Shown: piece after piece, positions 37,857 to 62,883 of the stretch
How positions within the stretch are numbered: position 1 is the first letter of the stretch
How the letters are laid out: the number at the start of each line of letters is the position of its first letter
Program-made: the position numbers and the translations under genes
NCBI RefSeq assembly: GCF_023516215.1
Contig: NZ_CP097349.1
Location: 248,001-312,000 of the forward strand
Direction: 5' to 3'
Source of the DNA: Cytobacillus pseudoceanisediminis
GTDB lineage: Bacteria > Bacillota > Bacilli > Bacillales > Cytobacillaceae
Length of the DNA: 64,000 nt
Notes under the pieces: generated by a model
Told to the model about the DNA's origin: nothing
The model's database searches: none
The model's input: only the letters and a program-made list of their open reading frames with translations

Positions 37857-38365
37857 TAAGAAAAGAGGAAGCGCCTTGCCCACAAAGGAACGCAGACTAA
37901 GAACGCCACGTCTTCCTAAAAGCTTCGCTTTCGGTCGTGCGATGTTTTTGCTGACGAAGCCTACATTGTCCTGTGTGCCTCAAGCACAAGACGAGCCTCA
38001 TGAAAAGGTGTTCTTTGCCTTTTTGGGGGAGTCCCCGAAATGTGGAGTCCCTAGGAGCCGCAACTAGACAAACCGAAAAGTGGAGGCGACTGCCCAGGGA
38101 CGACAGGCATAAGATGGTTCCTTCTGGAAGGAAACGGCTTATGACCCCGGGTCCCTAGGAGCCGTAACTAGACAAACCGAAAAGTGGAGGCGACTGCCCA
38201 GGGACGACAGGCATAAGATGGTTCCTGTAAGAAGGTGTTTTTCCTTCTGGAAGGAAACGGCTTATGACCCCGGGTCCCTAGGAGCCGTAACTAGACAAGC
38301 TTGTGACCTCCAGGTGGTAGGTGCTGTAGCTAGACAGTCCTCGAAGTTCAAAAATTTCTACACCC
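37857..38365 (-). repeat. Dispersed intergenic repeat, copy 4 (long form with internal tandem units)
   Basis: The only content of the gap between ypjB and the zinc peptidase. On the minus strand it opens with TTGAACTTCGAGGACTGTCT and GGAGGTCACAAG, and closes with TGGGCAAGGCGCTTCC and TCTTTTCTTATC at the ypjB stop. Its right half matches copy 2 (9.63-9.95 kb). Its left half is expanded into tandem units, listed separately. Short open frames inside it are not credible. Confidence 0.7.
38051..38300. repeat. Tandem units inside repeat copy 4
   Basis: Units beginning CTAGGAGCCG start at 38051, 38155 and 38278: periods of 104 and 123 bases, the second longer by an insertion TGTAAGAAGGTGTTTTTCC. 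Each unit contains CGAAAAGTGGAGGCGACTGC, CATAAGATGGTTCC and GGAAACGGCTTATG; the last two can pair (CATAAG/CTTATG, GGTTCC/GGAAAC) into a hairpin. The third unit is partial. Confidence 0.85.
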
Positions 38366-58292: not shown

Positions 58293-58949
58293 TTGTTAAA
58301 TAAAACACAAATAAGATACTGCCTTGATGCAATGGGGGAAATGTTCCCGGAGGCACATTGTGAATTAAATCATTCCAATCCATTTGAATTAGTCATAGCT
58401 GTAGCACTATCTGCACAATGTACTGATGCACTGGTAAACAAAGTGACAAAAAACCTGTTCCAAAAGTATAAAACACCCCAGGATTACCTCAATGTTTCCA
58501 TAGAGGAACTGCAGGAAGATATCCGCTCAATTGGTCTTTATCGCAACAAAGCTAAAAATATCCAAAAGCTGTGCAGATTGCTTCTGGATGAATATGAGGG
58601 TGTAGTGCCGCGTGACAGAGATGAGCTGACAAAGCTTCCTGGAGTAGGCCGCAAAACTGCCAATGTCGTTGTCTCAGTGGCTTATGGAGTGCCTGCTATT
58701 GCAGTCGATACTCATGTTGAACGAGTAAGCAAAAGGCTTGGCTTCTGCCGCTGGAAGGACTCTGTACTGGAAGTTGAAAAGACATTAATGAAGAAAGTGC
58801 CGATGGATGAATGGTCAATTACTCATCATCGTATGATCTTTTTTGGGAGATATCACTGTAAGGCACAGAATCCTCAATGTGAGATTTGCCCTCTGCTAGA
58901 TTTATGCCGGGAAGGCAAGAAACGTATGAAGGTGAAGCAAGCAAAATGA
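58293..58949 (+). CDS. nth: Endonuclease III
   Basis: DNA glycosylase/AP lyase for oxidised pyrimidines. 218 residues: helix-hairpin-helix LPGVGRKTANVVVS with catalytic Lys, catalytic Asp in VDTHVERV, and the [4Fe-4S] ligands in CKAQNPQCEICPLLDLC. TTG 58293 gives MLNKTQI, like B. subtilis; an in-frame GTG lies at 58281. Overlaps ypoC (ATGA). Confidence 0.94.
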   Translation: MLNKTQIRYCLDAMGEMFPEAHCELNHSNPFELVIAVALSAQCTDALVNKVTKNLFQKYKTPQDYLNVSIEELQEDIRSIGLYRNKAKNIQKLCRLLLDEYEGVVPRDRDELTKLPGVGRKTANVVVSVAYGVPAIAVDTHVERVSKRLGFCRWKDSVLEVEKTLMKKVPMDEWSITHHRMIFFGRYHCKAQNPQCEICPLLDLCREGKKRMKVKQAK

Positions 58950-59470
58950 CCGGGGAGATAGTCATTCCTGTTACAGAACAATTATGCCATTCCCTGTTTT
59001 ACAAAATGAATGATTCATTGGCTGTAAAAGAAAGATCCCTTTCCGCTTATCAGCCTCTACCGCCATTTCTATATGAAGCGGCTTTTTATAGGGGCATACC
59101 TGCTGTAAGGCCTTGGGAAACCAGCGAAAAATTTATTCCTGTCTTAATGAATGAGTGGGCAGGGCAGAAACATCTTCTGGGTATGCACTTTTCGAACCGG
59201 GACCAGAAGGCAGCATTAGATCCGATGAAAGTATCTTTGGGAGTATTTTTACAGCTATTGTATTGGGCAAACAGCAAGCCGGTAAACCTTCAGTCAGATC
59301 CTGGAGAATTGCCAATAAAGCCAGTGAACCTTAAGGAACGGCTGAATTTCATTTTTGCACGACCGGCTTTTTATCATTCTTATATACAGCTGTCTGAACT
59401 AATGTCTGAAATGGAAAAGCAATATATGAAGATGCTTGCATTGGAAAAATCGAAGAGAAAGCGCCTTTAA
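58946..59470 (+). CDS. ypoC: YpoC family protein
   Basis: 174 residues, soluble, function unknown. Matches the family in YQPLPPFLYEAAFYRG, WAGQKHLLGMHF and KPVNLKERLNFI. ATG 58946 overlaps the nth stop by four bases. It is the last plus-strand gene before a convergent intergenic region. Confidence 0.82.
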   Translation: MTGEIVIPVTEQLCHSLFYKMNDSLAVKERSLSAYQPLPPFLYEAAFYRGIPAVRPWETSEKFIPVLMNEWAGQKHLLGMHFSNRDQKAALDPMKVSLGVFLQLLYWANSKPVNLQSDPGELPIKPVNLKERLNFIFARPAFYHSYIQLSELMSEMEKQYMKMLALEKSKRKRL

Positions 59471-59489
59471 ATGATAGGCGCTTTTTTCT
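59458..59489 (+). terminator. dnaD-nth-ypoC terminator
   Basis: AAAGCGCCT pairs with AGGCGCTTT across TTAAATGAT, followed by TTT. The 5' arm overlaps the end of ypoC. Confidence 0.9.
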
Positions 59490-59510: not shown

Positions 59511-60039
59511 CTGCGCGAACTACAAGTCCCGCGCATAAACCCCATTAAGGCCGCGCGCGAAAGGAGAGAAAGCGCGCACAAGAAATGCGAGCGTAAAAGA
59601 CCGGAACCCGCGCACAAAAGGAGGGAAAGCGCACACAACGGAAGAAATGCGAGCGTAAAAGACCAGGACCCGCGCAAACCCAAAAGTCCCGCGCATAAAT
59701 CCCATTAAGCCGCGCGCAAAAGGAGGGAAAGCGCGCACAAATGGAAGAAATGCGAGCGTAAAAGACCAGGACCCGCGCAAACCCAAAAGTATCGCGCACA
59801 ACTCCAAAAAAGCCGCGCGTAAAAGGAGAGAAAGTGCGCACAAACCGGAGAAATGGGCGCACAAAAGACCGAGACTCGCGCGAATCCAAAGGTCTCAGCG
59901 CAAAAATCTCATTAAACAGCGCGGAAAGTGAGGAAACCGCGCACAAACGGAAGAAATGCACGCGCAAAAGACCGGGATCCGCGCGAACCCAACAGAATCG
60001 CGCACAACTTCAAAGAATCCGAGCGCCAAAGGAGGAAGC
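59511..60039. repeat. Tandem array of about 21-bp GCGC/A-rich monomers in five-monomer units
   Basis: About 26 monomers of 15-24 bases, each opening with a GCGC-type core and carrying A-rich tails. Five types recur in fixed order: A (CGCGCAAACCCAAAAGTCC), B (CGCGCATAAATCCCATTAAG), C (CGCGCGCAAAAGGAGGGAAA), D (GCGCGCACAAATGGAAGAAA) and E (GCGAGCGTAAAAGACCAGGA). Order read: ABCDE, CDE, ABCDE, ABCDE, ABCDE, ABC, with divergence growing to the right. It fills the gap between convergent ypoC and ponA, between their terminators. Long minus-strand frames across it in all three phases follow from a period divisible by three and have no ribosome sites. Confidence 0.9.
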
Positions 60040-60114: not shown

Positions 60115-60150
60115 TAAAAAAAGAGCTGACTCAACCCTGAGCCAGCTCTT
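60115..60150 (-). terminator. ponA terminator
   Basis: AAGAGCTGACTCA pairs with TGAGCCAGCTCTT (one mismatch), loop ACCC; on the minus strand followed by TTTTTTTATC. Confidence 0.9.
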
Positions 60151-60163
60151 CATTTCTATTTAG

Positions 60164-62883
60164 TTATGTGCCAGATCCATTTCCAGAACCGCTCGAGCCT
60201 GAAGTGCCGCTGCCATTGCCGTTTCCGCCGCTGCCAGTACCTCCAGTACCTCCAGTATCTCCAGTACCTCCTGTATCTCCAGCACCCGCTCCATTTCCTT
60301 CTCCGGTACCGGTGTCGCCATCTCCGGAACCTTCACCATTACCTTCACCGTTTCCGGCTCCTTCGCCATCTCCGGAACCATCACCGGAACCTTCACCTTC
60401 ACCATTTCCAGAACCGTCGCCATCTTGGTTTCCGTCCTGGCCGTCTTCACCATTTTGTCCTTCTTGACCTTCCTGTTCCTCTTCGCCAGTTCCATCTTGT
60501 CCTTCACCTTCAGTTTCATCTTCTTCGATGACGCCTGGATCAGGGATTTCTACTTTTACAGAGGCAGGATCACTTTGCTGATCACCTTTAAATGCTGTTA
60601 CTTTAAAGGTATAAACAGCTCCTGGCTGAGGGTTGGCAATTTTTAAGCCTTTTTCAGAAGTGACGCTAAGCTGCTGATCTCCGCCTTCATTTACGGATAC
60701 CGTCACTTCAAATTGAGTGCCTTCTGCGTCTTCTGGGTATTCCCATGATAATGCAATTTCATTTGTCTCCTGGTCAAAGTTCGCTGACAGACCAGAAGGG
60801 GAGTCGAGTTTATCAAACTTCTCAGACACTTGTGTCGGAGCATTGCCTTTTACAGCATATTCATAAATGATTTGGTCCTTAGGTGTAAATTGGCTTGCCC
60901 GTTTGGCAGGGTTGCTTCCTTTTTCAATGGCAACCTCCTCCACGGAGTTAGGGACCTTGAAGTCTTCTGTTTCTTTTCCTTCTGAAACATGTGCCATTAG
61001 ACTGCTGAAAAGTCTTTGCGCAATTTTTTGCTCATCGCCTGCAGGGATATAGTTTTTTCTATCCTGATAGCCGGTCCATATAGCTGCTGTATAGTTCGTC
61101 GTATAACCTGCAAACCATGCATCAGGCACAGCACCACTAGGAATTCCCCATTCCTGTTCCTGTTCATCAGTGTAGTTTGTAGTTCCTGTTTTTCCTGCTA
61201 CAGGCAATCCTTGAACATCTGCCTGTCGGCCAGTTCCATATGAAGATTTAACTACACTTTTCAGCATGTCACTAATCATAAATGCTGTATAATCTTTCAT
61301 CACTACTTCAGACTCTGGTTTCAAGTCAAGCTTCGTGCCGTCACGCATTTCAATTTGCTTGATGGCATGAGGCTCAGTGTAAAAGCCATTATTCCCAAAA
61401 GCACTATATGCGCCGGCTACCTGCAGAGAGGAAACCTCATATGCGCCGATAGAATATGACTCATACATTTCTTCCATTGGGATGCCTAATCTATTGGTGA
61501 ATTCTAAAGCCTTATCAGTTCCTACTTCCTGAAGGGTTTTCAGGGCCGGGATATTACGTGAACGGGCGAGGGCTTCACGCATGGACATAGGGCCCATATG
61601 TTTTCCGTCCCAGTTATTAATTTTTGTTCCGCCGGAATATGTGTGGGGTTCATCAACAATAGTCTGGTAGGTTCCCCATTTTAGATACTCGATTGCTGGG
61701 CCATAATCGACAATCGGTTTAAAAGTTGAACCAGCATGTCTTTTTTGATCTACAGCATAGTTAAACCCGCGTTTTACTTCCTGGTTGCGACCGCCGCCAA
61801 TTGCTCTTATTTCCCCAGTTTTTGTATCCAGCAAAGTGATTCCTGCCTGGAATTCGTCATCTGGATACGCTACCGCTGCATCAGTGTTTAAGATGTTTTC
61901 TACGTGTTTCTGTGCATTTGGATCCAGGGTCGTATAAATTTTTAATCCATCAGAATATGGGTTAAGATCCGGGTATTTCTTTTCTACTTCATCCAAGACA
62001 ACATCGATGAAAGAATCATATTTTGATTCGTTTGTTTCTCTTTTCTCTTCAGCCACAAGTGTAGATTCCACAGGAACTTTTTGGGCTGCTTCCATTTGTT
62101 CTTTTGTAATGAAACCATGCTGATTCATCAGTGAAAGGACAATATTTCTCCTTTTCTCTGCCTTGTCAGGATGATCAAAAGGATTATAATTGTTCGGGCT
62201 TTGCGGCATGCCGGCTAAGAGGGCCGCTTCATGCAGCTCCAGCTCATCTAGTTCTTTATCAAAAAAGATTTTCGATGCCGTTAAAACTCCATGCCCTTCT
62301 GACATGTAAATCTTGTTCACATACATCTCAAAGATTTCCTGTTTTGTATACTTGCGCTCAAGCTGGAATGCGAGCCAGGCTTCCTGGGCTTTCCTGCTTA
62401 GCGTTTTTTCATTATTTAAGAAGGAGTTCTTTACCACCTGCTGGGTAATCGTACTTGCCCCTTCAGAACCAAATCCGCGAGTTACGTTGGCTATTACTGC
62501 ACCGCCTAATCGAATTAAGTCCATGCCATTATGTTTGTAAAAGCGAACATCCTCAGTTGCCAAAAACGCGTCTTCCACTAGTTTTGGTATGTCTTCATAA
62601 GCGACATAATCACGGTTTTCGGAGCCTACATCAGTAATGAATTCGCCCTCCATATCGTAAATCTGTGAAGAAATTGGATCCTTCAGCAATTTTTCATCAA
62701 GCTTTGGTGCGTCTTTCACCATAAAAGCAAAAGCGCCTGCTCCTATAAGCATTCCAGCAATCCCGAGGGCAATTAAAATTAGGAAAATACGTTTAAAAGT
62801 GCCTGTGCCTTTTTTCTGCCCTTCTTTTTAGGCTTGGATTGCTGTTTGCGGCGCTCCTCTCTTGATTGATATTTTTCAGTCAT
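60164..62883 (-). CDS. ponA: Class A penicillin-binding protein PonA (PBP1; one frame break)
   Basis: Bifunctional peptidoglycan glycosyltransferase and transpeptidase. About 906 residues after correction: short cytosolic basic N-terminus, one membrane helix, GT51 domain ([42 protein letters not shown]), transpeptidase domain (active Ser in [26 protein letters not shown]), a fibronectin type III-like domain, and a Gly/Glu/Asp/Asn-rich tail. The frame as written starts at 62752. A start at 62883 ([17 protein letters not shown]) with AAAGGATG upstream joins it after one A is added to A6 (T6 at 62810-62815), restoring the membrane helix. Transcribed after recU. Confidence 0.92.
60170..60520 (-). 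repeat. Low-complexity repeats encoding the PonA tail
   Basis: Short in-frame repeats code for about 115 residues of Gly alternating with Asn, Ser, Asp, Glu and Thr ([16 protein letters not shown] and [20 protein letters not shown]). DNA units such as CCTCCAGTA and GGAACCTTCACC repeat. B. subtilis PonA has a comparable disordered tail of different composition (Asn/Asp/Gln). Confidence 0.8.

Follow-up and report, generated by a model that had tools for sequence, protein, structure and literature searches.

A helically phased tandem array between ypoC and a penicillin-binding protein gene in Cytobacillus, possibly a protein-bound chromosome-organising element

The window analysed here is a stretch of 64,000 nucleotides from Cytobacillus pseudoceanisediminis. 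Between the converging genes for YpoC and a bifunctional penicillin-binding protein it contains a regular tandem array of short units (Table 1), and the question raised by this locus is what such an array does on the chromosome, if anything. The genome contains at least nine such arrays. Tentatively, we take this one to be a DNA-level, putatively protein-bound or wrapped, helically phased element with a topological or chromosome-organising role, a reading which we consider possible, short of probable.

The array consists of 26 monomers arranged head-to-tail at spacings of 17-22 bp, with a mean of 20.3 bp after splitting into monomers. Each monomer starts with a box, CCGCGC-R-N-AAA, and continues with a tail of about 10 variable bases. 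The spacings are mostly 21 bp and every fifth is 19 bp, giving superunits of 103 bp, three successive ones having exactly this length. In our lettering the monomer types follow the order D-E, A-B-C, four times A-B-C-D-E, and A. The autocorrelation of the array is 0.55 at 103 bp, 0.53 at 206 bp and 0.43 at 21 bp, while in 200 first-order Markov shuffles no lag rose above 0.41. The periods given by Tandem Repeats Finder are 103 (59608-59992) and 206 (59608-60034), and the array detector added two weak monomers beyond 60039. The first-pass annotation had described a higher-order array of about 26 monomers of some 21 bp, spaced by two helical turns, with five types in fixed order, one superunit cut to three monomers, a retained GCGC core and two phased A-runs in many monomers. 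All of this is borne out: the 21-bp monomers are rich in A at positions 8-10 and at 17-19, and copies within arrays differ by 4.5% in the box and 11.1% in the tail, a contrast which is inflated somewhat by box-based detection.

Table 1. Features of the array and its flanks (positions in the window)
Feature	Position	Strand	Remark
ypoC (PF21747)	58886..59470	+	upstream of the array, on the array strand; start approximate
Terminator-like hairpin and T-run at the ypoC end	~59460..59487	+	GCGCC/GGCGC; folds at -13.9 kcal/mol
Tandem array	59511..60039	+	26 monomers of ~21 bp; five-monomer superunits of 103 bp
Reduced superunit	59551..59607	+	three monomers (21, 17, 19 bp)
Superunit	59670..59772	+	exactly 103 bp; spacings 19-21-21-21-21
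Superunit	59773..59875	+	exactly 103 bp; spacings 19-21-21-21-21
Superunit	59876..59978	+	exactly 103 bp; compensating spacings 20-21-20-21-21
Terminator of the penicillin-binding protein gene	60120..60151	-	14 pairs, T-run; called by the terminator scanner
Bifunctional penicillin-binding protein (transglycosylase, transpeptidase, fn3)	60164..62752	-	converging on the array

The array had been placed between two terminators which face each other, and both of them are plausible. One was called by the scanner; the hairpin at the end of ypoC escaped it because the loop is larger than the scanner limit, but it folds at -13.9 kcal/mol. Both are kept in six aligned sequences, in which the intervening array varies. 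The scanner gave six sites against 2.7 in shuffles, all on the minus strand, four of them inside the array (59512-59990); these four terminator-like matches are perhaps a mere by-product of GC boxes and T-runs. At the C-terminus of the penicillin-binding protein (window 60164-60530) lies a low-complexity tail rich in Gly, Glu and Asp; it contains 9-, 12- and 30-bp repeats and varies in length among relatives. Elsewhere in the window, a 104-bp tandem repeat is found at 38047-38235 (1.8 copies, 94%; GTCCCTAGGAGCCG...), which is unlike the array by eye.

Several familiar identities of repeated DNA were considered for the array. A coding reading was rejected because 103 is not a multiple of three and partial open frames are found on both strands. 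A CRISPR was dismissed as well, since the spacer-like tails recur every 103 bp and the units are contiguous. Around this array, Rfam gave only three sub-threshold matches at chance level (E 0.46-0.9), and for six array loci nothing reached the gathering score but one tRNA, located outside the array. The array had no match in plasmid and phage collections.

The same gap was compared in relatives by applying the detector to the window and to ten loci picked from 79 fetched by means of the penicillin-binding protein. It contains 14 monomers in L005, nine in L006, eight in L010 and L011, six in L004 and L008, and two in L012, and the detector found no monomer chain there in L009, L038 and L053. 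The gap is merely 28-37 bp in C. firmus (L003, L007, L013) and in L039, which is labelled Paenibacillus and is about 97% identical. The array of Cytobacillus oceanisediminis 2691 (L002) matches that of the window by eye and is followed by an insertion sequence. This insertion (L002:8600-9850), with an integrase-core (rve) ORF and an HTH_Tnp_1 ORF, lies inside the terminator of the penicillin-binding protein gene and adjoins the array.

The array belongs to a family of loci. A simple pattern found 11 copies in the genome of the window strain and none in its reversed control. A three-monomer sequence model (63 positions, built from 36 array pieces; E<=0.01, neighbouring hits merged) located at least nine places in G000, at least nine in G048, which is of the same species as the window strain, at least eight in G060 and at least seven in G046. 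These four near-complete Cytobacillus genomes thus hold at least 33 array places at about 14 distinct loci, the place counts being lower bounds with 150 of 553-626 candidates scored per genome. Locus identity was assigned by flanking proteins, most G048 places being matched through position and score only; with the G048 matches counted, nine of the 14 loci are present in two to four genomes. In the family search described below, the first pattern matched 24 of 36 genomes of the genus, with reversed-control matches in 10 of the 36.

The arrays are flanked by genes for YpoC and the penicillin-binding protein, a 5'-3' exonuclease, NMT1-like and LemA proteins, flotillin, a polysaccharide synthesis protein and SpoVT, DUF554 and DUF1256 proteins, CTP synthase, and others. 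The flanking genes are functionally unrelated, which argues that the role of the arrays is not gene-specific. Among the matches listed between loci, arrays are 65-82% alike over 51-498 bases, with the shared boxes contributing; these are not the near-identical copies expected of a MITE or other dispersed mobile element, and plasmid and phage collections gave no match either. Recent copying of superunits between loci was also rejected, since the in-register similarity of tails across loci is at background and long near-identical matches are absent. Some single loci show further features. A DDE transposase gene lies beside the array of L227, and an apparent decayed array of ~20-bp units, perhaps an eroding edge, precedes the second array of L092 (3750-4040). 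In the congener G041, loci L138-L142 have GCGC/A arrays with a 17/51-bp period and, by eye, a 17-residue open frame, and these may be coding or another kind of repeat.

The rhythm of the arrays is retained while the tails are not. Among 22 arrays of Cytobacillus, spacings of 21 bp (243 cases) predominate, followed by 19 bp (64), 20 bp (25) and 18 bp (14), with few others. From one spacing of 18 or 19 bp to the next the distance is exactly five places in 28 of 57 cases, where shuffles give 4.9 (maximum 12 in 2000 shuffles); since orthologs are among the loci used here and for the gap placement given below, neither set of counts is independent. The variance of the five-monomer sum is 2.5 against 5.1 when shuffled. 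Copies within an array repeat the rhythm by construction, and weight is therefore placed on its recurrence at ten locus groups with full units. Arrays in different gaps have the box and the 21-21-21-21-19 rhythm (103 bp) in common, whereas the stretches between boxes differ in sequence: tails across loci are 0.466 alike in register and 0.457 out of register, the in-register value being attained by 21 of 400 rotations.

Orthologous arrays behave differently in part. In five of seven orthologous pairs the tails are 0.68-0.78 alike in register, while the remaining two pairs, both involving L129, are at background (0.37 and 0.46) with the same rhythm. In the exonuclease gap, where the 296-residue protein is 96-100% identical in three genomes, the tails of L125 and L144 are alike (0.71) and those of L129 are not. 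For the orthologous pair L126/L205, another rotation is as alike as the register. Over eight pairs of orthologous arrays, GCGC cells differ by 7.9% (51/648), AA by 8.3% and tails by 27.4% (406/1483), each pair being counted in both directions so that the effective numbers are half of these. The GCGC and AA cells therefore diverge 3.3-3.5 times less than the tails, again with some inflation from detection by the box, and the two bases separating GCGC from AAA diverge like tails. Loss of the unit order in close relatives, which the first-pass annotation had named as counting against its reading, is partly observed: the 103-bp rhythm holds, but the monomer tails proved replaceable. Either the superunit is old, with saturated tails and with boxes and spacing held, or else the rhythm has been selected repeatedly. 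Both possibilities suggest something that reads the boxes and their spacing.

A three-box pattern was found in 46 of 397 genomes of the order and in 28 of 135 genera, with the reversed control in 25 genomes; the matches number 537 against 161 for the control, and 15 genomes have control matches only. This order-wide control is unclean: the reversed form of the first pattern found 21-bp arrays in other genera, so some control matches are array-like. In the family search 101 of 193 genomes matched, mostly with one or two matches outside the genus, which resembles the control. The other 351 of the 397 genomes of the order have no three-box match, and together with the short gap in C. firmus this indicates that the element is dispensable. 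When 40 further stretches around pattern matches were inspected, two of them from Cytobacillus (L205 and L206), 33 contained arrays of at least four monomers (14 of 20 and 19 of 20). These arrays have a period of 20-21 bp and a CGCG/A box. The 101-103 bp superunit occurs also in two other families (L207 and L211), and L208 has 204 bp. Superunit lengths outside are 101-103, 114, 155 and 166 bp, also 63 and 40-42 bp, and some lineages have a 20-bp spacing. A length of 103 bp therefore does not hold for every genus, and a universal 103-bp or integer-turn rule was dropped, the 17/51-bp period of G041 being a further departure. In L195 (3090-4477), five blocks of 21-bp array recur about every 311 bp, a further order of repetition.

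The position of the arrays relative to genes was tabulated from 59 loci, of which L189, L192, L199-L202 and L217 lacked an array of at least four monomers; the G041 loci L138-L142 were excluded. The 52 arrays comprise 32 in codirectional, 16 in convergent and four in divergent gaps. A preference for gaps between convergent genes, which the first-pass annotation had proposed to look for, is thus not the rule, though convergent gaps outnumber divergent ones where equal frequency is expected. In the codirectional gaps, 28 of the 32 arrays share the strand of the genes.

The orientation relative to replication, which the first-pass annotation missed, may be the strongest feature. With dnaA taken as the origin and the point opposite it as the terminus, all 33 array places found in the four Cytobacillus genomes are in leading-strand orientation, and the sign flips across oriC. 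In G000 (dnaA at 4151 kb) the arrays are on the plus strand at 307, 353, 533 and 4163 kb and on the minus strand at 2554, 2696, 3115, 3705 and 4083 kb; in G046 (dnaA at 247 kb) one is on the minus strand at 235 kb and one on the plus strand at 315 kb. In a wider table of arrays with known origin, 23 of 25 are leading, including all eight in convergent gaps. At the locus of a 519-residue oxidoreductase (L227, L233 and L236, in three genomes) the array is antisense to the adjoining lagging-strand gene and is still leading. Outside the genus there are exceptions, namely L187, L204, the G162 positions at about 2.596 and 2.806 Mb, a pair of G306 sites and, if the contig is read correctly, probably also two arrays of G275. 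Weak model hits outside the known loci of G000 and G046 (E 0.01-10), some of which may be decayed arrays, are leading in 20 of 25 cases, with one more on both strands. The background is therefore above one half and strand bias contributes to the polarity, the exact strength of which is uncertain: at a background of 80%, the chance that all 14 distinct loci are leading would be about 0.04 instead of 2 to the minus 14. On the array strand purines make up 51.9% of the non-coding flanks and 61.4% of the tails, so the flanks by themselves have only a small base skew.

The physical properties of the arrays bear on two of the possible explanations. The first-pass annotation suggested that intrinsic curvature or Z-DNA could act alone as a sink for supercoils, and the phased A-runs and the alternating GCGCGC of Cytobacillus fit this suggestion. 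In 39 arrays the predicted bend per 103 bp is 57 and 73 degrees by two simple wedge models, against about 37 degrees in shuffles. Curvature is thus predicted at 1.5-2 times the level of shuffles, but it is modest, and strong intrinsic curvature was rejected. Shuffling of the tails lowers the prediction only in part, from 57 to 51 and from 73 to 62 degrees, so the bend comes mainly from the boxes. In other genera CGCG is followed by A, C or G, and only some members of the family have the alternating GCGCGC; the Z-prone alternation is therefore not a conserved property, and a sink of this kind appears very improbable. Still somewhat less probable is a 3' untranslated RNA element read from the sense strand. 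The arrays of codirectional gaps do mostly lie on the gene strand, and two of 17 arrays (L197, z -3.4; L212, z -4.3) fold clearly better than shuffles on the sense strand. However, the mean z over the first 210 bases of the 17 arrays (40 shuffles each) is -1.0 for the sense and -1.6 for the antisense strand, the array here lies behind the ypoC terminator, Rfam gave the six loci no array match at the gathering score and this array only chance-level ones, and a spacing of 20-21 bp fits the turns of B-DNA. The box period is 20.5-20.6 bp. Cytobacillus monomers have G/C at positions 1-5 and the A-runs at 8-10 and 17-19, with nearly the same arrangement elsewhere, and this antiphase of A and G/C is seen in 22 Cytobacillus arrays and 28 others. 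Such antiphase makes DNA easy to wrap. The modest curvature, the unconserved Z-runs, the mostly ordinary RNA folding and the antiphase together favour a DNA element that is bound or wrapped by protein.

The main rival is a functionless, fast-evolving minisatellite, built and homogenised by slippage and recombination, tolerated in gene-end gaps, and stable or prone to expansion in one orientation to the fork; we give it a considerable minority share of belief. It would agree with the range from 26 monomers to none in the same gap of close relatives, with the complete turnover of tails that is possible, with the rarity of divergent gaps, as for tolerated DNA, and with the lack of plasmid and phage matches and of Rfam gathering-score matches in the arrays of six loci. 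It accounts poorly for the slow divergence of GCGC and AA when the bases between them change like tails, for a common rhythm in different gaps with unrelated tails, and for the persistence of loci in orthologous gaps of several species. A further possibility, which we hold to be unlikely, is a replication-polar signal read directionally by some machine that travels behind the fork or encounters it, for example a DNA translocase, a factor for segregation, or an obstacle to forks arriving from the wrong side. The uniform leading orientation with its flip across oriC, the convergent gaps, where all eight arrays with a known origin are leading, and the oxidoreductase locus all speak for this signal. 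Against it, at least seven to nine loci per genome are unlike short dispersed polar motifs, exceptions occur outside the genus, and the weak hits suggest that background strand bias may account for some of the polarity.

In the protein-bound reading which we favour, the boxes would sit on one face of the helix at intervals of two turns, with a second, weaker A-run half-way between them and G/C in antiphase. Through this phasing a protein could bind in a cooperative manner, or could wrap many turns of the DNA, and in Cytobacillus five boxes would make a superunit of ten turns. Placed at gene-end gaps, seldom in divergent (promoter) gaps, and co-oriented with the replication fork, the arrays may be places where a protein that organises the chromosome or handles supercoils docks or wraps the DNA, candidates being DNA gyrase and a nucleoid protein. 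The protein-binding or topological role suggested by the first-pass annotation is thus plausible; the binding, the identity of the protein and an effect on topology or segregation are candidate proposals. Wrapping alone does not explain the replication orientation.

Some known systems are instructive here. Insertion sequences reportedly target REP elements. The arrays resemble REP/BIME clusters in being intergenic, clustered, at gene ends and mostly in codirectional and convergent gaps, and in the insertion sequence and transposase gene beside L002 and L227. They are unlike these in that they lack a GTAG/CGTC tag on a palindromic unit of 20-40 bp and, for the most part, a strong stem-loop, and in that they have a uniform head-to-tail two-turn spacing, replication orientation in the genus and locus-specific tails. 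E. coli gyrase acts on gene-end REPs, which is linked to relief of supercoils (PMC3733652), and the arrays might in effect be a Bacillales counterpart of these gyrase-bound enterobacterial clusters. PMC12393610 describes motifs for gyrase cleavage that span about 130 bp and include two 47-bp regions in which G/C is periodic, and phased anisotropic bending at a strong site. The arrays share with the Mu SGS and this motif the long periodic G/C, which extends over some 130 bp, and the phased bendability; unlike gyrase sites they are tandem, up to ~850 bp long, and have a regular 21-bp box. Gyrase is also said to relax positive supercoils induced by transcription (PMC10117906). This ability and the long motif with periodic G/C make gyrase an attractive candidate.

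Minisatellites (VNTRs) have tandem units and a variable copy number, as seen in the ypoC gap, but the arrays differ from them by the common box and rhythm across loci with unrelated tails, by replication polarity and by conservation of the box. KOPS/SRS and Chi are polar chromosomal motifs which are short, many, dispersed and co-oriented with replication. The arrays are like KOPS/SRS in this co-orientation, with exceptions outside the genus, and differ from all of these motifs in being few and large (at least seven to nine places per genome at E<=0.01) and in their sequence.

No published description of such arrays was found in the open-licence literature. We put forward, as a doubtful proposal, that they form an undescribed class of polar 'metronome' arrays in the Bacillales, with boxes on one face of the helix, lineage-specific superunits and a putative protein that would gauge the spacing and not the sequence, located at gene ends and oriented with replication. 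If the arrays are neutral, they would be a clean natural case of arrays which hold unit length and direction despite sequence turnover. If they are bound by protein, they would point to a system of chromosome organisation in a large bacterial order, no account of which was found in that literature. They would then offer loci that are fixed, a clear box, a spacing rule open to measurement, and a polarity testable by inversion.
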